Shown here: positions 1 to 63,896 of the stretch, one piece after another
How the letters are laid out: each line of letters opens with the position of its first letter
Numbering within the stretch: the stretch's first letter is position 1
Assembly: GCF_021917145.1 (NCBI RefSeq)
Contig: NC_061081.1
Span: 7,004,777-7,068,776 of the forward strand
DNA from: Hypomesus transpacificus
Taxonomy: Eukaryota > Chordata > Actinopteri > Osmeriformes > Osmeridae
Length of the DNA: 64,000 nt
Reading direction: 5' to 3'
Notes under the pieces: generated by a model
Told to the model about the DNA's origin: nothing
What the model saw: only the letters and a program-made list of their open reading frames with translations
The model's database searches: none
Made by a program: the position numbers and the translations under genes

Positions 1-136
1 TGACTGTCCTCACTTGATGGCCATGCACAACCAGATAGGTCATTAACAGACAAGCTGTCAATAAAAGTTGTCAAAAGGTCAAAACGACAAACGTCATCTG
101 CACATCTGTAACAACAGCACCAACAATGACACCCAC

Positions 137-881
137 CTTTGGTACGGCAGATCTCTATCAGATTCACAACATTCTCATGTTTCAATAGCTGCAGAATCTT
201 TATTTCTCTCAGTGCTGTGATGGGAAACTGTGAACAAATGTGAAACAATGGCGATGAAACAATGAACAGCAAATTAAAAGGGCAATGCATGTGTCTGACT
301 TTTACAAACAAATGTCATTACAGAGATGGAGTAAACGTATGGACAGGGTAAACGTAAAGTAGCCAACTATTTTGACATGACTTGAGCACGAACGAACACA
401 AAAGCCTATTTCTTACCCCTTCTTTCTCGTTCTCCATTAGAACTTTCTTCAGTGCTACCTTCTTTCCAGTTTGTCTGTGCTTGGCTTTGAACACTTCACT
501 GGAAAAATAATGTTTATTGATCCGTATAAATGTCAAATAATGGGTCGCTAAGCTAGCAACACGAGTGACACATACCTGCCTCAATTAGAATGCGACGAGG
601 TACAGTTACCCAACCAATCTTACTAAATAACATCAATACAGGCCAAGCTAGGAAGATTAGCTAACAAGCTACCAACTTCTGAAGAAGCAAATGTGGGAAT
701 CTACTTCCTCGTTTAAGTGTACTTGAGCTTTAACGTTGCTATCAAGGGGTATTCCCTGGCATTAACAGCATGCAATAAGACAATTTTACCCAAAAGTTCC
801 TTGGCCAATTTTAGCAAGCTTCTCATATTTGGAAAACTCGTCACAGAAAGGGAATTCAACGCCATCGTAATATTTGGACAT
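137..881 (-). CDS. cdk9: Cyclin-dependent kinase 9, 5' part (exons 1-3)
   Basis: Catalytic subunit of P-TEFb; with cyclin T it phosphorylates the RNA polymerase II tail and releases paused polymerase in the nucleus. Coding exons read 790-881, 417-498 and 137-227, with consensus GT/AG sites and matching phases. Together they encode about the first 88 residues and the gene continues past the left edge. Visible are the start MSKYYDGVEFPF, the glycine-rich loop GQGTFGEV (about residues 26-33, split by intron 1), the ATP-binding lysine in VALKK, and the PITALRE helix that gave the kinase its original name. The start codon lies in GCCGCCATCATG, a strong Kozak and YY1-like context. The next exon is not in the window: 1-136 is intron. 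A hAT element lies 506 bp upstream of the ATG. Identification is by recognised family sequence; no other CDK carries this N-terminus plus PITALRE. Confidence 0.93.
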
Positions 882-1386
882 GATGGCGGCCTCCCGGTCG
901 GGCCTGTGGATGATAATTTAGTTTCGTTAACATGATATCATTTTCACGGATCTGCACATTTGAGGCAGACATAAATACAGTATTTTATGAAGTATATAAT
1001 ATTACGCAACAGTGCATACATTGTGTGATAAATGAATATTGGTCATACTTTTCAGCCGCACCGGCGTTTCCACTTTTGTCTCGCTGCATCCTTGTTTGTG
1101 TGTGTTTGACGCTTCAATAAAAAAGCGTTTTTCTACGGAAGCCATAAGCTACGGAAGCCTTAGAGGGTTGTAGGCCTGTCATTGTTTTTTTCAGTAGCTG
1201 ATATTGTATTCAACAGTTTCACTCTTTTTCAAAATATTTCTCTCTAGTGGAGACATAAAAACAATAAGCTATTGTGAAAATCCTATTTAGATGTTTAGCT
1301 GACAGTCAAATATGTAAGCTAGTTAAATTTCCCTTTAGGCCTGCAGTAGCCTACTTTGTTATGAAATGTCGTCCAACCTGTTAAAC
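882..1386. other. cdk9 upstream region
   Basis: About 500 bp between the cdk9 ATG and the hAT element. The first 30 bases are GC-rich and should hold the 5' UTR; no TATA box is seen. The rest is AT-rich and holds no coding or repeat signal that I recognise. Confidence 0.4.
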
Positions 1387-2225
1387 CAGGGGTGTCAAAC
1401 ATACGGCCCGCGGGCCGGAACCGGCCCCCAAGGAGGTTCGATCAGGCCCGCAGGATAATTTGAAAGTGGAAAAAATGCATAAAAGACATGGAATTAATAT
1501 TTTTAAATCGCTGTAATTCATGGATTATCCGCTAAGGGGCGCACTCTTTCCATCAGAGTAGAAGACAAGCCGCATCACTGAGACAGACTGAAAACAGCAG
1601 ACGGTATCAATTAATACCTTGGTCTCTACTAGGGATGGGCGAACGATGCCTTGTGAAGCTTTGGTGGTTTCTTCCGGATTGTGCCGGCCCAAAGAGCCGA
1701 ACTATCGGCGCTTTGAAAATGAACAGCGTCATCTAGCAGCCGTTTAAACTGGCTGAATGAGGCGTAGTGGTTGTCTCCGACGGTAGACTACCCTACGTTA
1801 TTCAATATTTAATTAAGGCTACATGTGTTCATTTTGATCTGATATTAGTGCTCACACATTAAAATGTTGTGATACATCCGTAGGCCTTTAGAATTATGTC
1901 ATTTTCTCACAGTAAAAGTTAAAGAATATCGTACGAGATTCACTGGACTGGGGCGCGAACTTGGGATCCCAGATTCGCATTAACAATATGTAACCGTACA
2001 ACGCTTTAACCAACTGCACCACCGAAGAGATCATTACTTGTTAAAGCGGTTGGACGGACTTTATACGATATGGTCTTTATATCAATTAAACTAGATAACA
2101 CAGAAGAAAGACATGATATTTTGGTTATTTATAGCAGAGTATGGTATAATTTTAATGGTCCGGCCCACTTGACATCTCCCTAGGCCGTATGTGGCCCACG
2201 ATGCGAAATGAGTTTGACACCCCTG
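1387..2225. mobile_element. Non-autonomous hAT transposon, copy 1 (839 bp)
   Basis: Ends are CAGGGGTGTCAAAC and GTTTGACACCCCTG, perfect 14-bp terminal inverted repeats. They are flanked by the perfect 8-bp target duplication TGTTAAAC at 1379-1386 and 2226-2233, which is diagnostic of hAT elements. There is no transposase reading frame. A second copy of the same length lies at 17116-17954 with about four mismatches, so both are recent. A tRNA-like segment is embedded at about 1945-2030 on the minus strand. Confidence 0.93.
1945..2030 (-). other. tRNA-like segment inside hAT copy 1
   Basis: Read on the minus strand, the segment has an A-box-like GGTGCAGTTGGTTAAAGCG and, about 45 bases later, a B-box-like AAGTTCGCGCCCC. 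These are the internal promoter elements of a tRNA or tRNA-derived SINE head. It has no clean cloverleaf, so it is not called a tRNA gene. The same segment recurs in copy 2 at about 17674-17759 with two or three substitutions. Confidence 0.5.
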
Positions 2226-2233
2226 TGTTAAAC

Positions 2234-3252
2234 TATAATCAAACGTACAAGGAGGACCTTAGCTCAAAATGCATTCTCTTTAAAACCTTAATCTTTTTGA
2301 TCTACAAAACATCAACTTTATATTTCAATGAGTGCCATTAAATAGTAGCCTAAACAAATGTCCATTCACCTGAATTGTATATGTGTTTGAACTGTACAAG
2401 GGGCCAGTACTGTTCGACCAACGGAAATGTGTTTATTTGACTATACATTACATTACATTTACTAACATAAAATCAGTTATAAGCCAATCATGTTACAGAA
2501 TAAAGGTTTCTAAGAGAATAGATAATATGCACTTTTATAGCCTACCCAACCCAAATATCATCTATATTCTATAAGAACAACCAATCTGCCCACATCTTGA
2601 CTCTTATCCCTATATCACTATAATGGACGTTGCACAATCGGTGTGACAAGCACCCAGCAACTAAAGTCTTCAGCAAGAGGTGGCGGAATGTCTCCCAGCC
2701 TACAGTATGATTTATGCGTCATGTTTTGAATATATATTCAAGTAGCACATAATATTCAAACCAAACCCACTTTCTACTTACTTACAGGCCACACAGTTCA
2801 AACAACTAGTTCAGTGAGTAGGACTAACATAACATTGTGTAATGTTGCATTGTTAATAGTTATGTGGTTCAGATCTCGCCCGCCTCCAAATCATATGACT
2901 GTCACAGGTGTTGCTATCAACACGCAGTCCTATGCATACTCCTATGATCCAGTACAGGTTTTACAAACCTCCTTCTCTAAAAATCCAAACAACTGTCTCG
3001 TGATTTGTTGCACACACCAAGAATAGAGTACATTCGATATGGAGTACTGCAGGTAGTGATGGGGAAGCGAAGCTCTGTGACGCAATACACCATTATAAAA
3101 TAGGGCAGAGGTTTAATGTCTGCTGTGGCTACAATACAATCCTGGATCCCTGTACTGGAGCTGGAGTATCTGTTACGAACTGTTTATAAGGAAGTGACTA
3201 AGCATTCCTCCATTAGTGTGTTTTGTGTGTACAAGAAACGTTGGAAAGCAGC
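2234..3252. other. Intergenic region and ependymin-like promoter
   Basis: 2234-3050 is AT-rich with no gene signal. A TATA box (TATAAAA, 3094-3100) precedes the ependymin-like start codon by about 155 bp. A CRE/ATF-like TGACGCAA lies about 15 bp upstream of it. This is a plausible focused promoter for the secreted protein downstream. Confidence 0.5.
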
Positions 3253-13500: not shown

Positions 13501-16500
13501 TTCATCCAATCGCCCATAAACCTGCCAGAAGTATTTGGTGAAGAGTTCTTTGCTGATGGGTTGTCCATTAATTCTTATCCTCTCCCTTACTTGCACTAAA
13601 TGTGGGGAACTACAGGGAGACGCATACACTCTTTAACCAGAATCTTTTTAAAATATATTTTTCTCTTTCTATGTCTTTCAAGATAGAAACTCTCTGGGGA
13701 AAAGGAAAATGGCATTGCAATGGCAAACGACTACAACTACACATTGTATGAGTCATTGTTATTTGATACTGATTTAGACATGCCTATAAAATCCAGTCCG
13801 AAAGCCGTAGCCTCTCAATATCTTCTCTGTGAAAGCGCACGTTGACCCCTGATGATATAAGACCAGTGGTTATATGCACAAACACACACAGCACAGTTGC
13901 ATGTACAATTAATATTTAGAGTAATGCACACAAACAAAGGCTCACCTTGCCCTTGGTTCCAGTGACATGAATTATATTCAGATGGTCAAGATCCTCTACC
14001 TTTGAACCCCAAAAAAAGTTTTTTTACTTAATTTAGTTTAAAACTATATTATAATCTATAAAAGACAATGCAGAATGAGTATGCTATTTGAGTAAACTGA
14101 TTTTTCAATAGGTTTGAGGATAAGGCTAGGAATATTTACAATGTGCCACCCAAGTTGGGCGACATTACATTTTTACATTGATTATTTTTTCTTACAAACA
14201 AAATACAAAAAGACAAGGGAATTATTCAATTACATTTTAACAATAAAAATTACTAAGAAGTAAACAACCAAAGATTAAAAGACCCCTACACCCACGTTGA
14301 AGTGCGTACAGCAAGTTGTTGCAGTGTGGAATCCACATAACGCATCGCTGGATATGTGAATGCCCAGTTATCCTTTATACCTACTCAAGCTCAGGGAAGC
14401 AGTGGAGGTTCCGTACCAGGCTACCCAAGTTTAACATCGTCCTAAACCATAGATTTGAAATTAATTAATAAAATTACTTCATTTAATTTTTTGCCCAGCT
14501 TTAGTGCCACCATACTTTAGTGAGAGGTTTAATTTATCTCATACTCAAAAGATATAAACAAAGGCATTGACACAGACTTACCTTGCAATTCCTTTCACAT
14601 TCTAATGCACTATGCCACAGTATGCATGATTACATCCACAGTATCCTTAGTGCTACCTAATAACTGCTACCTCAACACACTACTTGTTTATTTTACCTGT
14701 GAACTGGTCGGCGCTGCACTGTCTCTCACTGTGCCTATTGCCCGGTTTGCGCAAGCACTTTATGTAGGAACCTTGTGAAATACCTGTCTCATGTATTGTT
14801 TGTTGTGTAAGTTGTTTATGTGGCACCATGGTCCTAGAGGAATGTTTCATTTAATTGTGTACAACCGTATATGATTGAATTGACAAATAAAAACCACTTG
14901 ATAAATTGCCAGTGTGCTGGGTGTGCCAGGTAGCAAAGGGATCGTCATTTACTCACCTCCAGTCCAGTCCGCTCCAGGAAGCCCCTCATGGCCTGGAGCT
15001 GGAGCTGAGGATTCCCCCGCTCCCGTCGCACCTGCTCAAGTGCACTGGAATTGGTTTGTAAGGTATTGAGGGTGCACACAGCATCCTGTCGTGGAAAAAT
15101 TGTATATACTGTTTAGAATTTAAATAAAACATCCATTTACTGGTAAGTTTCAGTACAACTGAAGTTATTTAATCCAGCTGATATTCACTTGACATTTACA
15201 ATGTCACTTGATCAATGACAAGTTTAACTATTTTATGTAGGGCTGCAAAGGGGTTGACAATTTCTATAAAGGTATTTTCAAGAAAATGGCCATCATGTTA
15301 CTTCAAAATATTGTTAATTCAAGTTTTGTCCATTGTCCGCACTTTTCTAAATGTAAATTAAGTTAAAGACCAAGATATGCACATGACATGGAAAAAACCT
15401 GGCATACAATCCCAAGTAACAGGAATCGTAAATTGCAGTCTGATTTGTTCCATAGGCCATTTTGCGCCCTCAATGACCTAAAGCAGTGGTCTTCAACCTT
15501 GGTCCTCAAGGACCCCAGTCCTGCACGTTTTAGATGTTTCCCTGCTCCAACACACCTGATTCACTTATCTAGTTATGCAGAAGCCTGTTAATGACCCATT
15601 CCTTTGATTCAGGTGTGTTGAAGCAGGGAAACATCTAAAAATGCAGAGCAGGGAGTCCCTGAGGACCAGGCTTGAAGACCACTGACCTAAAGCTTGACGG
15701 ACCTTCTTCAGGTAGTGACCGGTTGCTAAGGTAGGATTGGTCAAGGCCGTCTGGGGGCAGGGCTTTCCAAAACGTCAACTGAGTTTTGGGGCACAAAGGT
15801 AAAAAATTGCAACAAAAGCAAGTTTAATTCTCATTGAGGGTGTTGTGCATCCTTTCAAACGTTTCACTTTTAATAACCTTAGTCTGAATTTGAAAGGGAG
15901 AAAATGGGCTGCATTTATTTCCTTCCAGGTGTACACAGAATACCTCATTTTACCGAAGTGAAAACATTTAGTGTAGCCTAATAATAAGCAAACATGTAGT
16001 TAGATCGCATGTGTATATTTCTGTTCATGTTTTTGCATTTCTTGTTTTTACTTATTTATAACGTTACGTTACAAGCCCATTAGCTTAACTTCAAGTTTCG
16101 AAAATGAGAATCACCCAGAAAACGTAAATTGATTCAACATAATTCGAGACTGGCGTAATGTTGCTTCATAAAGCTAACTAGCTAACATGTCTATTCCACA
16201 GCACATTTTGCACGTGGCATCTGGCTAAAGTTGACCATTTGAATAGGGGCATGTCAGCTATCTAAAACTTGTCAAACTAGCAAATTGGCTAACGAAATCT
16301 AGTTAGGTTGCAAATTAGTTAGCTTGTAGCTAGTTAGCTAGCTAGATCAGCACATTGGTTATTACATATCGCATACGAGCCACACGAAGTTACAAAGGGG
16401 TCTATATTACCTGATATTCCATTTTTGGAAACCGCGGAGCAGCCTTGGTACTTGAGCAGTTGAATGACAACGTCAACTTTGAAGTCCAGCCCTTGTGCTT

Positions 16501-16551: not shown

Positions 16552-16975
16552 CGTGGGGTTTGAGTAAATTGCATGCAGGAAGTCTTAACCAAATTTGGGT
16601 GCTTCCCTTTTTTATTACATTATGCAGTAGGGGAAGCCAGCCTCAATGTGTAATCTAATTTCCGGTTGATTTATTCCTATCTTTTCAAAATAAAGGTAAT
16701 GTCACAAACTGTACTTTGTAGTGCACAACGCCCATCATGCAGTCGGTGATTAAGATGTCGGTGAGACACACACCGAAAAAATAAATCGCACACAGTGCCT
16801 GTGATGAAGTAGGTGACACACAAATTCCTGGAATTATAAATAGGGCACAGTGCCCGTGAAGCCATCTGTGAGGGCTACAGTGGACAGGGGCTCCAGTGAG
16901 TGTATTGAGTTAATCCAGTGTTTTATTGATTCCAAAATTTAAGCACAGTAATATCCAGTTGTGTCATCTTATAAT
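16552..16975. other. fpgs upstream region with a short dispersed repeat
   Basis: There is no TATA box near the fpgs start. At 16716-16860 an imperfect repeat (GTGCACAACGCCCATCATGC, then GGAATTATAAA) occurs in two or three degenerate units. A related unit lies at 36658-36722. Nothing coding is seen. Confidence 0.45.
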
Positions 16976-17083
16976 GGCCGGGTTTCCCAGATTCGTTAAG
17001 AAGCTCTTAACGCTAAGATCTTAGAACGCTCCTAAGAAGCTCTTAGCGTTAAGAGCTTCTCAACGAATCTGGGAAACCGGGCC
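16976..17083. mobile_element. Palindromic MITE, family GGGTTTCCCAGATTCG, copy 1
   Basis: Arms GGGTTTCCCAGATTCGTTAA and its near-perfect inverted partner fold almost end to end. A second member is at 45277-45422. Target duplications are not clear, so the superfamily is not assigned. Confidence 0.75.
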
Positions 17084-17115
17084 AACTTCTGTCAAGGAAA
17101 CAAAATAGACTAGAC

Positions 17116-17954
17116 CAGGGGTGTCAAACATACGGCCCGCGGGCCGGAACCGGCCCCCAAGGAGGTTCGATCAGGCCCGCAGGATAATTTGAAAGTGGAA
17201 AAAATGCATAAAAGACATGGAATTAATATTTTTAATTCGCTGTAATTCATGGATTATCCGCTAAGGGGCGCACTCTTTCCATCAGAGTAGAAGACAAGCC
17301 GCATCACTGAGACAGACTGAAAACAGCAGACGGTATCAATTAATACCTTGGTCTCTACTAGGGATGGGCGAACGATGCCTTGTGAAGCTTTGGTGGTTTC
17401 TTCCGGATTGTGCCGGCCCAAAGAGCCGAACTATCGGCGCTTTGAAAATGAACAGCGTCATCTAGCAGCCGTTTAAACTGGCTGAATGAGGCGTAGTGGT
17501 TGTCTCCGACGGTAGACTACCCTACGTTATTCAATATTTAATTAAGGCTACATGTGTTCATTTTGATCTGATATTAGTGCTCACACATTAAAATGTTGTG
17601 ATACATCCGTAGGCCTTTAGAATTATGTCATTTTCTCACAGTAAAAGTTAAAGAATATCGTACGAGATTCACTGGACTGGGGCGCGAACTTGGGATCCCA
17701 GATTCGCATTAACAATATGTAGCCGTACAACGCTTTAACCAACTACACCACCGAAGAGATCATTACTTGTTAAAGCGGTTGGACGGAGTTTATACGATAT
17801 GGTCTTTATATCAATTAAACTAGATAACACAGAAGAAAGACATGATATTTTGGTTATTTATAGCAGAGTATGGTATAATTTTAATGGTCCGGCCCACTTG
17901 ACATCTCCCTAGGCCGTATGTGGCCCACGATGCGAAATGAGTTTGACACCCCTG
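17116..17954. mobile_element. Non-autonomous hAT transposon, copy 2 (839 bp)
   Basis: It has the same length, orientation and ends as the element at 1387-2225, with about four substitutions. The perfect 8-bp target duplication GACTAGAC lies at 17108-17115 and 17955-17962. It starts 565 bp upstream of the fpgs start codon. The tRNA-like segment is at about 17674-17759. Confidence 0.93.
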
Positions 17955-19330: not shown

Positions 19331-19624
19331 CCTAAAATGTTGAATTTAAGATCTATTGTTTTGTTGCACGGTAATATTGTAGATTGAATCAAACTGGAGA
19401 GTAACCAAAACAACTGTGACACTTGGGATTTCAGGTTATAGGAGCGAGGTGAAGTTAGTTTCATATTCGACATTCGACATTCGTCTCACATTCGGAAGAC
19501 GCTACTTTGCAGCGCCGAGTTAGGGACCGGGTGAAAATTACCCATACAATTTTGAAAAATGATGACATTTATAATATTTGTATGACTATAAAACCTCAAA
19601 CAAACAGCAGAGCATTCCAACAAT

Positions 19625-21985
19625 GTCTGGCCTACTTCCAAACCCTTTACTTTTTCAATAAAACATTTTAAAAAATGATAGAAAATCGCTAATCTCTGAA
19701 AATAGCATGAAATCATTGATAATCTCAATAACTTTTTCAAACTTGGGTCAGAAAATCTCGAATATACACCATATTATTCTAATAGTGTCTGGCCTACTTC
19801 CACACGCTTTACTTTTTCAATAAAACATTTAAAAAAATGATAGAAAATCGCTAATCTCTGAAAATAGCATGAAATCATTGATAATGTCAATAATTTTTTC
19901 AAACGTGGGTCAAAAAATCTCGAATATACACCATATTATTCTAATAGTGTCTGGCCTACTTCCACACCCTTTACTTTTTCAATAAAACATAAAAAAAAAT
20001 GATAGAAAATCGCTAATCTCTGAAAATAGCATGAAATCCTTGCTAATCTCAATATATTTTCCAAACTTGGGTCAAAAAATCTCAAATACACACCAGATTA
20101 TTCTAATAGTGTCTGGCCTACTTCCACACCCTTTACTTTTTCAATAAAACATTTAAAAAAATGATAGAAAATCGCTAATCTCTGAAAATAGCATGAAATC
20201 ATTGATAATCTCAATAATTTTTTCAAACGTGGGTCAAAAAATCTCGAATATACACCATATTATTCTAATAGTGTCTGGCCTACTTCCACACCCTTTACTT
20301 TTTCAATAAAACATTTTAAAAAATGATAGAAAATCGCTTATCTCTGAAAATAGCATGAAATCCTTGCTAATCTCAATATATTTTCCAAACTTGGGTCAAA
20401 AAATCTCAAATACACACCAGATTATTCTAATAGTGTCTGGCCTACTTCCACACCCTTTACTTTTTCAATAATGTTTTTAAAAAAATGATAGAAAATCGCT
20501 AATCTCTGAAAATAGCATGAAATCGTTGATAATCTCAATATCTTTTCCAGACTTGGGTCAAAAAATCTCTAATATACACCTGATTATTATAATAGTGTCT
20601 GGCCTACTTCCACACTCTTTACTTTTTTAATAAAACCTTTTAAAAAATGATAGAAAATCGCTAATCTCTGAAAATAGCATGAAATCCTTGCTAATCTCAA
20701 TAATATTTCCAGACTTGGGTCAAAAAATCTCAAATATACACCAGATTATTCTAATAGTGTCTGGCCTACTTCCACACCCTTTACTTTTTCAATAATGTTT
20801 TTAAAAAAATGATAGAAAATCGCTAATCTCTGAAAATAGCATGAAATCCTTGCTAATCTCAATATATTTTCCAAACTTGGGTCAAAAAATCTCAAATACA
20901 CACCAGATTATTCTAATAGTGTCTGGCCTACTTCCACACCCTTTACTTTTTCAATAAAACATTTAAAAAAATGATAGAAAATCGCTAATCTCTGAAAATA
21001 GCATGAAATCATTGATAATCTCAATAATTTTTTCAAACGTGGGTCAAAAAATCTCGAATATACACCATATTATTCTAATAGTGTCTGGCCTACTTCCACA
21101 CCCTTTACTTTTTCAATAAAACATTTAAAAAAATGATAGAAAATCGCTTATCTCTGAAAATAGCATGAAATCCTTGCTAATCTCAATATATTTTCCAAAC
21201 TTGGGTCAAAAAATCTCAAATACACACCAGATTATTCTAATAGTGTCTGGCCTACTTCCACACCCTTTACTTTTTCAATAAAACATTTTAAAAAATGATA
21301 GAAAATCGCTAATCTCTGAAAATAGCATGAAATCATTGATAATCTCAATAACTTTTTCAAACTTGGGTCAAAAAATATCGAATATACACCATATTATTCT
21401 AATAGTGTCTGGCCTACTTCCACACCCTTTACTTTTTCAATAATGTTTTTAAAAAAATGATAGAAAATCGCTAATCTCTGAAAATAGCATGAAATCGTTG
21501 ATAATCTCAATATCTTTTCCAGACTTGGGTCAAAAAATCTCTAATATACACCTGATTATTATAATAGTGTCTGGCCTACTTCCACACTCTTTACTTTTTT
21601 AATAAAACCTTTTAAAAAATGATAGAAAATCGCTAATCTCTGAAAATAGCATGAAATCCTTGCTAATCTCAATAATATTTCCAGACTTGGGTCAAAAAAT
21701 CTCAAATATACACCAGATTATTCTAATAGTGTCTGGCCTACTTCCACACCCTTTACTTTTTCAATAATGTTTTTAAAAAAATGATAGAAAATCGCTAATC
21801 TCTGAAAATAGCATGAAATCATTGATAATCTCAATAACTTTTTCAAACTTGTTTTAAAAAATATCTAATATACACCTGATTATTCTAATAGTGTCTGGCA
21901 TACTTCCACACCCTTTACTTTTTCAATAATGTGTTTTAAAAATGATAGAAAATCGCTAAACTCTGAAAATAGCATGAAATCCCTC
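19625..21985. repeat. 15-unit 162-bp tandem array (left arm)
   Basis: The anchor GTCTGGCCTAC (last unit GTCTGGCATAC) occurs at 19625, 19787, 19949, 20111, 20273, 20435, 20597, 20759, 20921, 21083, 21245, 21407, 21569, 21731 and 21893, every step exactly 162 bp. Units differ by subtype blocks. Subtypes at 20435-20758 recur at 21407-21730 (972 bp, six units later), and those at 20111-20434 recur at 20921-21244 (810 bp, five units later). Confidence 0.97.
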
Positions 21986-22138
21986 AGAAATTTTATAGAA
22001 GACGAGTAATCATGTCATACAGGAAGACAGGATCACAATCCACCACAACGGATCAATTGACAGTCTCAGCTGTCAAGTCTTAGGTAAAACACTTTATATA
22101 TAAGGAATATTTTGAATCCAGTCGATACTGATCTGACT

Positions 22139-22139
<1 letters not shown>

Positions 22140-22170
<31 letters not shown>

Positions 22171-22190
22171 GAGCGCGAATTAGAGAGAGA
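22140..22190. repeat. GA/GACA microsatellite
   Basis: (GA)n, then (GACA)n, then GA-rich sequence in the unique centre of the fold-back element. Confidence 0.85.
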
Positions 22191-22479
22191 GGTATGTGTA
22201 AGATTACTCTGATGTAACCCCTTGACACACCCCATCACTTTGAGTGTCTGCCTGTCAGAAAAATTGAAGATGTATCTTTTTTTATTCTGTATAAAATGAT
22301 ACTGTGTTCAGCATTCCTTGTGTGGAAAGAGAGGCCTACTCCCAAACCTGGAATAGATGGAGACGCAAACTCTGGTGACCATTTGCTTGACACCTATATG
22401 GTCAACTAGGGTTGATGACGCAAACACTCACACACACGTGCGCAAGGTCTATGCAAGGGAGCCAATGAAAGAAGAGTTA

Positions 22480-22895
22480 TGAAGAAATTGGGATTTCCTA
22501 TGTGCTTACATTATTCACTTATCAATAGAACTAGTCATTGGATACTAGTTAGTAAGTTCTCATGTAAACTTGCTATTAATAAGAGTAGATTGTGTCTATG
22601 TGTCAGGATTAATAGATGTTCGGGGTCAGGAGAAAGTACTGGCTAAACGTTCCTTGTCATGACTACAATTAGAGCTCCATATGAACTCTCTAGTCTGAGA
22701 GTTGTCATGGTGTTGGGAGCAGTGAATCTCTTTCTCTGAGACTGTCGTAACGTCAATACTGTCTGACTGTTACAATCTATGTTTACATTCTTGTGCCCCT
22801 ATAAAAGATGGTCCTCCGGCTTTCAGAGCTGAGAGAGACATGATTGAGACCTAAGCCTGGTGTTGTGTTGTCATTTATTGTCAGAGATCTGGTTC
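22480..22895 (+). mobile_element. LTR-like interspersed repeat, copy 1
   Basis: About 415 bp similar throughout to 51459-51872. It carries a TATA motif (CTATAAAAG, about 22800) followed by a conserved stretch to the end, as in the U3-R-U5 order of a solo LTR. No TG...CA ends or target duplication can be fixed, and no retroelement coding sequence adjoins it. Confidence 0.45.
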
Positions 22896-23019
22896 TTTGT
22901 TTGGCAAAACTCATTGCCACAACTTGTGCCACTGTGTTTAAATGCACGCTTCAGATAAAAAAGAAACAGGCAATGAAAATAAGCAAAGGCTGTAATCATA
23001 ATATATATGGGGTTCCATA

Positions 23020-23640
23020 AAAGTTATTGATTGAGATTAGTGAAGATTTCATGCTATTTTCAGAGATTAGCGATTTATTTTCTATCATTTTTTTAAATGT
23101 TTTATTGAAAAAGTAAAGGGTGTGGAAGTAGGCCAGACACTATTAGAATAATATGGTGTATATTCGAGATTTTTTGACCCAAGTTTGAAAAAGTTATTGA
23201 GATTATCAATGATTTCATGCTATTTTCAGAGATTAGCGATTTTCTATCATTTTTTTAAATGTTTTATTGAAAAACTAAAGGGTGTGGAAGTAGGCCAGAC
23301 ACTATTAGAATAATCCGGTGTGTATTTGAGATTTTTTGACCCAAGTTTGGAAAAGATATTGAGATTAGCAAGGATTTCATGCTATTTTCAGAGATTAGCG
23401 ATTTTCTATCATTTTTTTAAATGTTTTATTGAAAAAGTAAAGGGTGTGGAAGTAGGCCAGACACTATTAAAATAATATGGTGTATATTCGAGATTTTTTG
23501 AAACAAGTTTGAAAAAGTTATTGAGATTATCAATGATTTCATGCTATTTTCAGAGATTAGCGATTTTCTATCATTTTTTAAAATGTTTTATTGAAAAAGT
23601 AAAGGGTTTGGAAGTAGGCCAGACATTGTTGGAATGCTCT
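23020..23640. repeat. 4-unit inverted 162-bp tandem array (right arm)
   Basis: The reverse anchor GGCCAGACA occurs at 23131, 23293, 23455 and 23617, again exactly 162 bp apart and inverted relative to the left arm. Confidence 0.95.
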
Positions 23641-23804
23641 GCTGTTTGTTTGAGATTTTATAGTCATAGAAATATTATAAATGTCATCATTTTTCAAAAT
23701 TGTATGGGTAATTTTCACCCGGTCCCTAACTCGGCGCTGCAAAGTAGCGTCTTCCGAATGTGAGACGAATGTCGAATGTCGAATATGAAACTAACTTCAC
23801 CTCG

Positions 23805-24887
23805 GTGGTAATAGGACACTTTTTGGTAGAGGCTCCAGTAGACTTACAAAATAACTGTTAACTCGCCCCAGTGGTGTTTCTGTAAATCGTTTTAGGGTTT
23901 AGGAACATTTTCATGTTGGAATAAAATGGGAATACACATTATTTTAGAAGCTACACACTTTCTAACATAACCCCCTCTCTCACTCAGGCAGCATTTTCAG
24001 GTAATGAGGGACAGCTTCTGGTAAAGTGGGTTAGGGTTAGGTAGTCTGTCTGCTAATATAATAATAATAATTAGTTTATATAGGCCTACAACAATGCTAG
24101 GTGCAAAGGTGTGGCAAGTTTCATTAAGTTGTGGGGTTTGACTTATACAATAGGCATAAAGTGTAACTGATGTAAACCTTGGTGATCTGCAGTCTTTGTG
24201 CTAGCTAGCAAGTCCCGCTGAGTTAGCATTTCGTTGGACTAGCGTTAGTGGTCACGCTTACAAGTCTGAAAGCGCTAGTTCGATGACAGTGTAAGTTGTT
24301 ATTTAGTTGGGAACTTAAGTGCAGTATGATGCATTGGTATTAAACATTTGAGAACTGTCGAATTAAATAACTTTTGTAGCATAAACACAGCATACTAGAT
24401 GTCCCACTTTAACCTACCTGACAAATGCTGTCCCACATTACCTGAAATGATCAGGTAATGTGGGACAGTCACATAAAACGTTTTTTTGTCTTTCTAACAA
24501 AGCATTATTTTACAAATTTGTATGTGTTTCAATCAGTGGTTAAACCCCTTCAATGTGCTGCAATAGTACTCATTGTAACTTAATTTAAATTCCTTTGCCA
24601 GCTTTATTATTGAGAAATATAAAGTCATATGCCTCTGAGCTTTCGATGCGTTTTTTCTGTATATCTCTTGTCAGGCAGATCACGCCTACTCTGATGATGT
24701 CAGACAAATACAAACTTTGTGACTAGAAGTGTTGTATTTGTCAAGATAAGGTCTGGTGATTGGATGTCCGTTTTGCACCTATTACATTATCAAAATGCAT
24801 AACTGTCCCACTTTACCAGATGTCCCACATTACTTGAACTCACCCTTGTAAAAAAAAAAAAAACTCTTGTATTGAATGGGTCACATG
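23805..24887. other. Repeat-derived spacer with TGTCCCACWTTAC motifs
   Basis: The motif TGTCCCAC(A/T)TTA recurs at about 24402, 24429, 24804 and 24821, and in reverse near 24455. At 24428-24468 two of these form a perfect 18-bp-arm hairpin with a 5-base loop. A poly-A tract lies at 24850-24863. No gene is seen. Confidence 0.5.
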
Positions 24888-43700: not shown

Positions 43701-45270
43701 TCAGTCAATTTGACTTATGACTTTTTCCCACTGGCCCATGCTGAAATGACAGCTACTAAAACTGAATTCTAGTATTTTGGTTTAAAGGATTCTCATGCAT
43801 AGACTAGCATTTGCACTCATCTATCTAACAAACGCTATTCTCGATGGGCTCACAGAAGTAGAGAGGAAAGATAGAAAGTATTTCTGACCAATGCATGCAC
43901 ATGAGTTTATCTTAAACAGTATTTGCAATGTAGATCCTCTAGAGGGCAATGTAGGAGGAAATTGCATTAGGGACTAAAGGCCTAAATGAACTAGTCAGAC
44001 TGAATCAAGTACATGGGTGTGTTTCTACATGCACACACATAAGTGTGTGGACTGTGACGTCCTCAAAAGTTATTTGATGTGTGTGAGTTTGAGGGTGAAG
44101 CAGCAGGTTGGGAATGGGACAGGGGCGATTCGTCTTGGCTCTTGTCCGCTGAGCTTGATTGGCATAGCTCACTCCTTCAATCACATTTGTGTTGATTAAC
44201 AAGCTTCACAAACATAACTAGGCTCTGAATAGGTTGCACAGTTTTCATCTCTTTAGTCTCTTTGTCCCTTTTTGTCCTTTCACTCTCACACTCTCACTTT
44301 CTCTCCCTCCCTTCTTATGTCTTGTCAGGCCATGAATAACGGTCCCTATGCAGAGCACACACACACACTAGCCTTTAGGAGAATTCTTCAGCATGGAAGC
44401 TTGCTGTTTTGCTCGACTCCCTACCCAGTGCTTCTCTGAGAGGTGTCCGGTGTACAGCCTCTCCATCTGTCTCAGGCTCCAAGTCTCTCTCTTTCTCCCT
44501 GTTCAATTAACTGATGAGCTCATTCATTATGTCATCCATATCCATAGGTCTAGGTTGAATATATAATATGTTGATCCTATAGGTCTAGGAGATCCCAAAA
44601 ATGTACTAGGCTTTAACCCTTGAGATCAGTTGAATGCATTTGCTGTTCTGGTATTTCGGTTGCACTGAAGTTTAGAGATGTACTCCTCATTCCTCTACCT
44701 TTGCTCCATGCATTTACACACACACACAAACACGAACACACACACACTATTGCACACACATACACCCACTGCTTCGAAGCTGCAAACGAAACCAGACGGA
44801 CTCATTTATAGCCAATTAGCTCCAACACAGTAAGCAGAGCCTCACCTGCCCAATTAAAGAGCTTTATTGAAACCACCCAGCAACTATTTCAATGCAAGGG
44901 CACACACATTTATTACATTACATTTAGTCATTTGGCAGACGCTCTTATCCAGAGCGACTTACAGTAAGTACAGGGACATTCCCCCCGAGGCAAGTAGGGT
45001 GAAGTGCCTTGCCCAAGGACACAACATCATGTGGCGCGGCGGGGAATCGATCCGGCAACCTTCTGATTACTAGCCCGACCCCCTCACCGCTCACCCATCT
45101 GACTCCCAACATACACACACAACATACACACAATGCATGAGTAGAAACGTAAACAAAAAAAAACTAATGCACTCGCATTTCAGCATTCATGTTGTTCTGC
45201 TGTGTCAAAGTGTCTAGTATCCCCACATTGGCTATTGACTGTCCCAAAGAACATTCTTTATGTGCTGAAC
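37741..45270. other. Gene desert, left part
   Basis: No coding exon was recognised. 38485-38700 is an unusually GC-rich island containing a PBX/HOX-type TGATTGATTAA. 39840-40050 is a more complex stretch with TAATGA, TTAATG and ATCAATCA motifs. The rest is AT-rich with short (CA)n or (TG)n runs at about 40068-40085, 41440-41465, 44350 and 44718-44750. Confidence 0.4.
44913..45107 (-). mobile_element. tRNA-derived SINE, full length, reverse orientation
   Basis: Read on the minus strand it has a tRNA-like head with a degenerate A box (AGATGGGTGAGCGGTGAGG), a good B box (GGATCGATTCCC), a body with CCTTGGGCAAGGCACTTCAC, and a tail GAGCGTCTGCCAAATGACTA ending ATGTAATGTAA. Related copies are at 51015-51190 and 63707-63896. 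Confidence 0.9.
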
Positions 45271-45276
45271 ACACAT

Positions 45277-45422
45277 TGGCTGGGTTTCCCAGATTCGTTA
45301 AGAAGCTCTTAACGCTAAGAGTTTCTTAAGAGCGTTCTGAGAGCGTTCTAGGGCGTTCTTATAACGCTCTTAAGAAGCTCTTAGCATTAAGAGCTTCTTA
45401 ACGAATCTGGGAAACCCGACCA
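45277..45422. mobile_element. Palindromic MITE, family GGGTTTCCCAGATTCG, copy 2
   Basis: About 146 bp. The arms GGGTTTCCCAGATTCGTTAA and complement fold end to end. It is the same family as 16976-17083 but with a longer centre of GAGCGTTCT-type repeats. Confidence 0.8.
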
Positions 45423-51014: not shown

Positions 51015-51190
51015 GGGAGTCAGGTAGGGAATAAGGGCTAGTAATCTGAAGGTTGCCAGTTCAATTCCCAGCTGTGCCAAATGACGTTGTGTCCTTGGGA
51101 AAGGCACTTCACCCTACTTGAATGTCCCTGTACTTACTGTAAGTCGGTCTGGATAAGAGTGTCTGCTCAATGACTAAATGTTAATGTAAC
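51015..51190 (+). mobile_element. tRNA-derived SINE, degenerate head
   Basis: It has the same body and tail as the SINE at 63707-63896 (TTGGGAAAGGCACTTCACCC, then GATAAGAGTGTCTGCTCAAT). The A-box region is partly deleted. The B-box-like AGTTCAATTCCC remains. Confidence 0.88.
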
Positions 51191-51458: not shown

Positions 51459-51872
51459 GTGGAAGAAATTGCGATTTCCTGTGTGCGTACATTATTCACT
51501 AATCAATAGAACTAGTCATTGGATACTAGTTAGTATGTTCTCATGTAAGCTTGTTATTAATAAGAGTAGATTGCGTCTGTGTCAGGGTTAATAGATGTTT
51601 GGGATCAGGAGAAAGTACTGGATAAACATCTCTTGTCATGACTACAAGGAGAGGGCCAACTATGATCTCTCTAGTCTGAGAGGTCATGTGTTGGGAGCCG
51701 TGAATCTCTTTCTCTGAGACTGTTGTAACGTCATTACTGCCCGACTGTCACTATCTATGTTTACATTCTTGTGCCCTATAAAAGATGGTCCTCCAGCCTT
51801 CAGGGCGGAGAGAGACATGATTGAGACCTAAGCCTGGTGTTGTGTTGTCATTTATTGTCAGAGGTCTGGTTT
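51459..51872 (+). mobile_element. LTR-like interspersed repeat, copy 2
   Basis: Aligned over about 415 bp with 22480-22895, with scattered substitutions and small indels. It shares the CTATAAAAGATGG TATA region and the downstream GAGACCTAAGCCTGGTGTTG block. It stands alone, with no adjacent coding sequence. Confidence 0.5.
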
Positions 51873-63706: not shown

Positions 63707-63896
63707 GAGTCAGATGGCCGAGCGGTTAGGGAATCAGGCTAGTAATCAAGTTACCGGTTCGATTCCCGGCCGTGCAAAATGACATGTCCTTGGGCAAGGC
63801 ACTTCACCCTACTTGCCTCGGGGGAATTTCCCTGTACTTACTGTAAGTCGCTCTGGATAAGAGTGTCTGCAGCTAAATGACTAAATGTACATGTAA
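63707..63896 (+). mobile_element. tRNA-derived SINE, full length
   Basis: The tRNA-Leu-like head has an A box (TGGCCGAGCGGTTAGGG) and a B box (GGTTCGATTCCC). The body contains CCTTGGGCAAGGCACTTCAC, and the tail GATAAGAGTGTCTGC (here with a 2-base insertion) ends ATGTACATGTAA. It is the best-preserved copy in the window. 63897-64000 shows nothing further. Confidence 0.92.

Follow-up and report, generated by a model that had tools for sequence, protein, structure and literature searches.

Within the window, the whole 64-kb stretch of DNA analyzed here, lie an opsin exon with a Rhodopsin_N domain, a tubulin, and LIM-domain exons; the host is taken to be a fish. Positioned at 19443-23806 is an element of 4.36 kb, in which two inverted arms surround a middle of 1.05 kb. 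Each arm is formed by a 145-bp terminal domain followed by an array of 162-bp units. The individual features are as follows.

19434..19442, unstranded: left target site duplication, 9 bp, GGTTATAGG, set by the family-wide AG/GT boundary, one mismatch relative to the right copy
19443..19444, plus strand: left terminal dinucleotide AG, lying just beyond the perfect inverted repeat
19445..19589, plus strand: left terminal domain (FD), 145 bp, CpG observed/expected 1.67 versus 0.40 for the window
19590..21982, plus strand: left arm array, with 14 complete 162-bp units plus a 15th that is truncated
19993..20316, plus strand: 324-bp block, repeated exactly 5 units on at 20803-21126
20421..20848, plus strand: 428-bp block, repeated exactly 6 units on at 21393-21820
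21983..23029, plus strand: middle domain (M), 96.8-99.6% identical to M of 21 other copies
22481..22894, plus strand: 414-bp segment of M, common to a separate dispersed repeat
23030..23659, minus strand: right arm array, with 3 complete 162-bp units plus an innermost 4th that is degenerate
23660..23804, minus strand: right terminal domain (FD), 144/145 identical to the left FD
23805..23806, minus strand: right terminal dinucleotide, GT on the plus strand and AC when read inward
23807..23815, unstranded: right target site duplication, 9 bp, GGTAATAGG, one mismatch relative to the left copy

The arms, 19445-20172 and 23077-23804, display 96% complementarity over 728 nt. Their outer regions differ at 2 positions in 300 bp and at 5 in 310 bp, in agreement with the approximately 99% identity that a sequence-only reading of this DNA had assigned to the outer 300 bp. 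That reading placed the limits of the element at 19445..23804, which positions the arms correctly but leaves out 2 bp on each side. According to TRF, the left array has a period of 162 bp from 19590 to 21981 (14.8 copies, 0% indels) and the right array the same period from 23030 to 23625 (3.7 copies, 1% indels); a further count gives the latter about 3.9 units. The 15 and 4 units counted previously thus comprise 14 and 3 full ones, with a left 15th unit that ends at about 125 positions and carries a 1-bp deletion, and a right 4th unit, the innermost, that is degenerate by virtue of a 4-bp insertion and small gaps. The spacings in the window copy are exactly 162 bp in 14 of 14 cases on the left and 3 of 3 on the right. 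The consensus unit is interrupted by stop codons in each of the six frames.

Elsewhere in the 64-kb window neither the terminal domain nor the 162-bp unit was found again, and a candidate near 24503 scored 44, which is inside the window background (up to 48). Such isolation would be in keeping with a satellite array that was duplicated once, locally and in inverted orientation, and is immobile. The probability of this explanation is close to nil, however, given that the host genome, comprising 376 contigs and 437 Mb, contains dozens of scattered copies that share its ends, carry 9-bp duplications, and lie between unrelated flanks. With a 301-bp arm query, at least 38 near-full-length matches (293-306 bp, 95-100% identity, the two in the window counted) were observed when the 38 best of 566 first-look candidates were scored; the search gave 396 matches overall. 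The terminal domain, with the best 40 of 410 candidates scored, yielded at least 40 matches at 99% identity or higher, again including the two in the window, and one more at 89%. Each of the 24 stretches taken at arm matches has a 162-bp array attached to a terminal domain, and the outer arms contain from about 2.6 to at least 43 units. A comparison of 47 flanks of 300 bp from family copies revealed no mutual similarity at E 1e-5, and thus the copies represent separate insertions, neither one duplicated segment nor two haplotypes. The viral and phage collections contained no match to the element, and those in two bacterial MAGs, which span 18-38 nt, were taken as chance.

The ends were evaluated in 21 copies, namely 19 with both ends in one stretch (the window element included), a giant copy referred to as C22, and the copy C16; L037 and L038 were left out of this test. 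With the boundary fixed at AG/GT, the 9-bp target site duplication is exact in 13 of the 21, contains one mismatch in three and two mismatches in two, and is absent from three. For the 19 two-ended copies the corresponding numbers are 12 exact, three with one mismatch (L016, L021, and the window element), two with two mismatches (L012 and L031), and two with none (L029 and L030); together with C16, the last four are those without a duplication of zero or one mismatch. Judged on the window alone, the duplication bordering the element is weak (P 0.024). The giant C22 copy is flanked by an exact 9-bp duplication, CTGAAGGCA, and has AG/AC ends. The pairing of an AG end with an AC end is observed in 17 of the 21 copies (16 of the 19 two-ended ones plus the giant), the exceptions being L022, L029, in which the right end is truncated, L030, and C16. 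In C16 the AC end is missing and the fixed boundary shows no duplication, but a 7-bp match (TCCCAGC) extends over the right end of this copy and leaves the status of its target duplication ambiguous.

The family is thus a unit found at many unrelated sites with AG...GT ends and, usually, a 9-bp target site duplication, and its copies are very alike. The element in the window is very probably a non-autonomous fold-back DNA transposon belonging to this young, multi-copy family. The sequence-only reading had likened it to a fold-back transposon or a satellite seed spread by transposition, to be recognized by further insertions with the same ends and target duplications, and had held that it would be a local duplication were no other locus to carry the termini joined to 162-bp arrays. 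Many such loci exist, with 9-bp duplications and unrelated flanks, and the proposal is borne out.

The middle domain, approximately 1.05 kb in length, lies between the arms in 22 of the 22 fetched stretches tested. Its identity of 96.8-99.6% to the window sequence refers to aligned columns without gaps in 21 copies, three of which were compared over part; L015 and L024 were compared over 634 bp of M only, and L032, the interior of which consists of two middles, was left out. The domain has been partly lost from L012 and L029. It is absent from the stretches read of L025 and L028, and from C16 and L045, and L044 has part of it. M has one orientation relative to the AG end in 12 copies and the opposite one in 7, and L015 and L024 have opposite orientations relative to their AG/AC ends. 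Such flips are what recombination between the arms would produce, with conversion of the ends being an alternative. The 414-bp segment recurs in a separate dispersed repeat (window 51462-51871, L039, and L040), near the copies of which no arms were found. It was considered as a nested insertion but proved to be part of M throughout the family, though common to another repeat.

The M domain of the window contains two open reading frames of at least 70 amino acids, neither with a Pfam match, and no recognisable genes. A scan for open reading frames of at least 130 amino acids, covering the 19 two-ended copies plus 8 additional stretches, yielded a Tc1-type reading frame and one of 131 amino acids in the middles of L013, L026, and L027. 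Several are present in L032, which by eye are retroelement-like, and those in L025, L027, and L028 lie outside the arms. The L025 frames of 258 and 179 amino acids have no Pfam match; in this copy a 38-unit arm adjoins sequence without the usual middle, and it may be truncated or have a different interior. C16 has no reading frame longer than 150 amino acids. Those longer than 120 amino acids in L044 and L045 were judged by eye, and no autonomous copy was recognised. A 1.66-kb insert was considered as a candidate for the transposase of the element itself; its Tc3-type HTH (PF01498) and, by eye, inverted ends beside TA identify it as a Tc1-type passenger. The copies scanned contained no recognisable transposase, just as had been noted for the window.

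The 1.66-kb insertion provides a view of how the arrays change. It is found at the same position of M in both L015 (C366) and L024 (C15), is 99.3% alike over 1,665 bp, and resides in copies with unrelated flanks, demonstrating that the element multiplied as a unit after receiving it. The arrays contain 13.9 and 18.8 units in L015, and 3.9 and at least 38 in L024, the last being cut by the stretch end; they are therefore at least two- to three-fold apart. Given that the shared part of M is 99.7% identical, array length changes much faster than sequence. Each arm is a fixed 145-bp terminal domain attached to a variable array of 162-bp units.

Within the left array of the window element, when the phase is shifted by 124 bases, units L03 and L08, L06 and L12, and L07 and L13 form identical pairs, and exact copies of a 428-bp and a 324-bp block lie 6 and 5 units apart, respectively. 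Shuffling the unit order gave such a run in 1 of 300 trials (P 0.003). For the family, the longest exact internal duplication (237 to 3,767 bp) deviates by no more than 3 bp from a whole-unit multiple in 10 of 11 arms examined. Duplications of 1,021-1,148 bp are present in 4 of the 10 arms other than that of the window, and C16 has one of 3,767 bp, or 15 units. The exception to whole-unit spacing is an arm of L016, with a longest duplication of 1,073 bp that is off a whole-unit multiple. In all, 109 units are exact repeats of another unit in the same arm, and 22 unit sequences are present in more than one copy. When 35% of the pairs formed by 535 full units were drawn at random, the mean number of differences was 10.0 within an arm, 10.8 between the two arms of one copy, and 12.8 between copies. 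The exact multi-unit duplications support the unequal exchange that had been suggested from the window alone.

The 162-bp length itself might be under selection, for nucleosome phasing or protein spacing, and in the window copy 14 of the 14 left spacings are 162 bp even though at least 36 substitutions are needed to account for the 15 full units compared (13 left and 2 right). When the window element is taken together with the 24 fetched stretches, making 25 records, 535 of 639 spacings are 162 bp and 104 differ, mostly by 1 bp to 161 or 163. The strict length is therefore a property of the clean window copy: the earlier claim of units of exactly 162 bp holds for all 17 spacings of that copy but not for its innermost units or for the family. 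In addition, exact block duplication accounts for the uniform length of young arrays. A selected length is thus quite improbable, and the suggestion of a constraint close to nucleosome scale is not upheld by the family spacings. Copying, and not a strict constraint, seems to maintain the length. A regular higher-order repeat of two units, hinted at by the window copy, is hardly visible family-wide, the mean differences at lags of 1 to 4 units being 10.8, 10.3, 10.5, and 10.5. An ancestral 81-bp half unit was likewise rejected (score 16 versus a shuffled mean of 16.5).

The arms attain considerable lengths inside the element. In C16, arrays of 77.4 and 6.5 units are separated by only about 110 bp. 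The largest insertion, C22:5166926-5206528, is 39.6 kb, and its left array would be 228 units if uninterrupted; the four stretches sampled, which cover 13.9 of 37.0 kb (37.7%), are array in every case. Across the family, arms thus range from about 2.6 to about 228 units, as measured in one assembly. Arms of 77 and about 228 units, the near disappearance of the middle from C16, and the 38-unit arm of L025 beside sequence without the usual middle could be taken to mean that a satellite, of which the terminal domain is part, spread by other means such as extrachromosomal circles or segmental duplication. That explanation is highly improbable in that every fetched arm begins at the same terminal domain, target site duplications border the whole two-arm unit, even in the 39.6-kb copy, and the flanks are unrelated.

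With respect to the fold-back transposon reading, the element has the long inverted arms, the variable tandem repeats, and the target site duplications at dispersed insertions that characterize fold-back elements, and its 9-bp duplication and long inverted ends agree with those of MULEs. Members of the P superfamily generate 8-bp target site duplications. The 7-8 bp of the P superfamily and Galileo disagree with the duplication observed here, which is 9 bp and exact in 13 of 21 copies, and the AG/AC ends disagree with the terminal 5'-GG of Merlin. MULEs are defined by target duplications of 8-11 bp and long inverted ends, and the presence of Mutator-type elements in vertebrates is treated as an open question (PMC6446971). 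A search of the element's own genome with the MULE model PF10551 gave 0 matches with 5 candidates scored, which weakens the usual assignment for 9-bp duplications; the model found matches in 3 of 14 control genomes, and a divergent MULE clade could escape a single model. The 9-bp duplication fits both Mutator-type and Merlin elements, and the superfamily is left open.

On the basis of the published descriptions, as far as the excerpts available extend, the closest known system in structure is Tetris of Drosophila virilis (PMC4079207), the likeness being one of description rather than of sequence. Tetris is also non-autonomous, with a terminal flanking domain followed by variable AT-rich tandem repeats and then a middle, and its target site duplications are 8-10 bp as compared to 9 bp here. 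Its arrays likewise grow into satellite and show allelic changes in length; the lengths reported here derive from one assembly. It differs in having a unit of about 220 bp and a terminal domain of up to 866 bp, as opposed to 162 and 145 bp, and satellite-like arrays of up to 66 copies, as opposed to about 228 units between perfect duplications; its amplification is thought to disrupt the element (PMC4079207). The present family differs further in its vertebrate host and asymmetric AG/AC ends. A stretch common to the terminal domain and the unit, as in Tetris, was not significant (P 0.07 and 0.19). In the parts of the reports consulted, Galileo, a P-superfamily element of Drosophila, similarly has long, internally repetitive inverted arms with unequal repeat numbers per copy, but its duplications are 7 bp and its repeats about 210 bp, with up to three per arm (PMC3573991, PMC3688188). 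As excerpted, Tm1, a Mutator/Foldback element of root-knot nematodes, resembles the fish family in its composite arms with variable tandem repeats, mostly 9-bp duplications, and short asymmetric end motifs outside the inverted repeat, and differs in its repeats of about 14 bp, its 7-bp asymmetric motifs, and the Phantom-type transposase in some copies (PMC3169594). Merlin elements, from a partial text, share duplications of 8-9 bp, have internal tandem repeats in some families, and are reported in zebrafish, but have conserved 5'-GG ends rather than AG/AC (PMC8101967). Searches of the open-licence full-text literature listed no fold-back element of this kind from fish. An entry for the family in a fish repeat library may exist.

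From the 9-bp duplications and inverted ends we infer, and as no transposase was found can only infer, that movement was by cut-and-paste in trans. A transposase made elsewhere would recognize the terminal domain, and perhaps the units as well. The arrays would lengthen and shorten by unequal exchange between chromatids or homologues, and recombination between the inverted arms would flip the middle. The arms would thus be satellite arrays that grow inside, and spread with, the transposon.

The units may alternatively be repeated binding sites for the transposase, such that longer arms transpose better and selection on transposition expands the arrays. The tandem repeats of Galileo are described, in the section of the report available, as holding sites for its transposase domain (PMC3688188), and parts of the unit are nearly invariant, with 78 of 162 columns varying in fewer than 1% of the 535 units. 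The conserved columns of the window copy are, on the other hand, weakly clustered (P 0.012 for a 45-column stretch, with wider stretches giving 0.06 and 0.30), no transposase has been recognised, and an arm of about 228 units seems far beyond what binding would need. This role for the units is possible but doubtful.

A satellite repeat growing inside a transposon is of a kind already known from flies. That the fold-back transposon itself serves as both factory and vehicle of a satellite in a vertebrate family, with recently mobile intact copies, tens to hundreds of units, and a not yet recognised transposase lineage (9-bp duplications and asymmetric AG/AC ends), is a tentative and rather unlikely proposition; if true, the family would constitute a living link between transposon and satellite. 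The birth of satellites has mostly been inferred from old remains, and here many states coexist in one genome: older copies with approximately 3-6 units per arm, young ones with approximately 3 to 77, and a 39.6-kb insertion with approximately 228 and a perfect target site duplication. The shared Tc1-type insertion serves as a clock for measuring array change, and the missing transposase of the family offers a concrete test of whether vertebrates have Mutator-type elements.

The older copies, L037 and L038, have terminal domains of 87-97% identity, middles of about 85%, and arms of approximately 3 to 6 units; two such copies are too few to reveal a trend. The terminal domains of the window element have kept 9 CpG per arm, the basis of the elevated observed/expected ratio given above, which fits a recent insertion.

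At L021, a stretch fetched from the same genome, an older fold-back copy, the terminal domain of which is 89% similar, appears to have received the insertion of a young one. The copy in L032 retains an exact 9-bp target site duplication. Between its ends lie two middle domains, additional array pieces, and open reading frames of retroelement appearance, and it is apparently rearranged or nested.

L021 80-286 and 3967-4210, older fold-back copy with a young one apparently inside
C158:218200-228104, fold-back copy of L032
C8:12804300-12814211, L025; sequence beside a 38-unit arm at positions 1-3233

In L025, the usual middle is absent from the sequence adjoining the 38-unit arm, which could reflect either a truncation or a different interior. 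Neither of the open reading frames in this sequence (258 and 179 aa) matched a Pfam entry; part of the latter resembles, by eye, the UnaL2-type repeat.

The fold-back middle has 414 bp in common with a distinct dispersed repeat of ∼520 bp, two copies of which are arranged in L039 in inverted orientation with ∼1.5 kb between them.

Window 51462-51871, dispersed repeat
L039 1892-2412 and 3883-4417, dispersed repeat
L040, dispersed repeat

Other repeats within the window are as follows.

1382-2225 and 17111-17954, 844-bp repeat, two copies
44913-45105, 51025-51189, and 63707-63896, mutually related repeats
44922-44975, minus strand, UnaL2 LINE 3' element (RF00436), inside the first of these
16975-17084 and 45282-45417, short, almost palindromic elements, ∼70% alike
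15484-15684, imperfect palindrome of ∼200 bp, CAGTGGTCTTCAACC...
24428-24468 and about 24800-24835, hairpin TGTCCCACATTACCTGA...TCAGGTAATGTGGGACA

The 844-bp copies are 99.4% identical and display the termini CAGGGGTG...CACCCCTG. As judged by eye, TGTTAAAC is repeated in the flanks of the first and GACTAGAC in those of the second. The element, which we take to be of the hAT type, has been active recently. The short elements resemble the palindromic MITEs of fish. The ∼200-bp palindrome is flanked at either side by acctaaag, and motifs related to the hairpin are present close by it.
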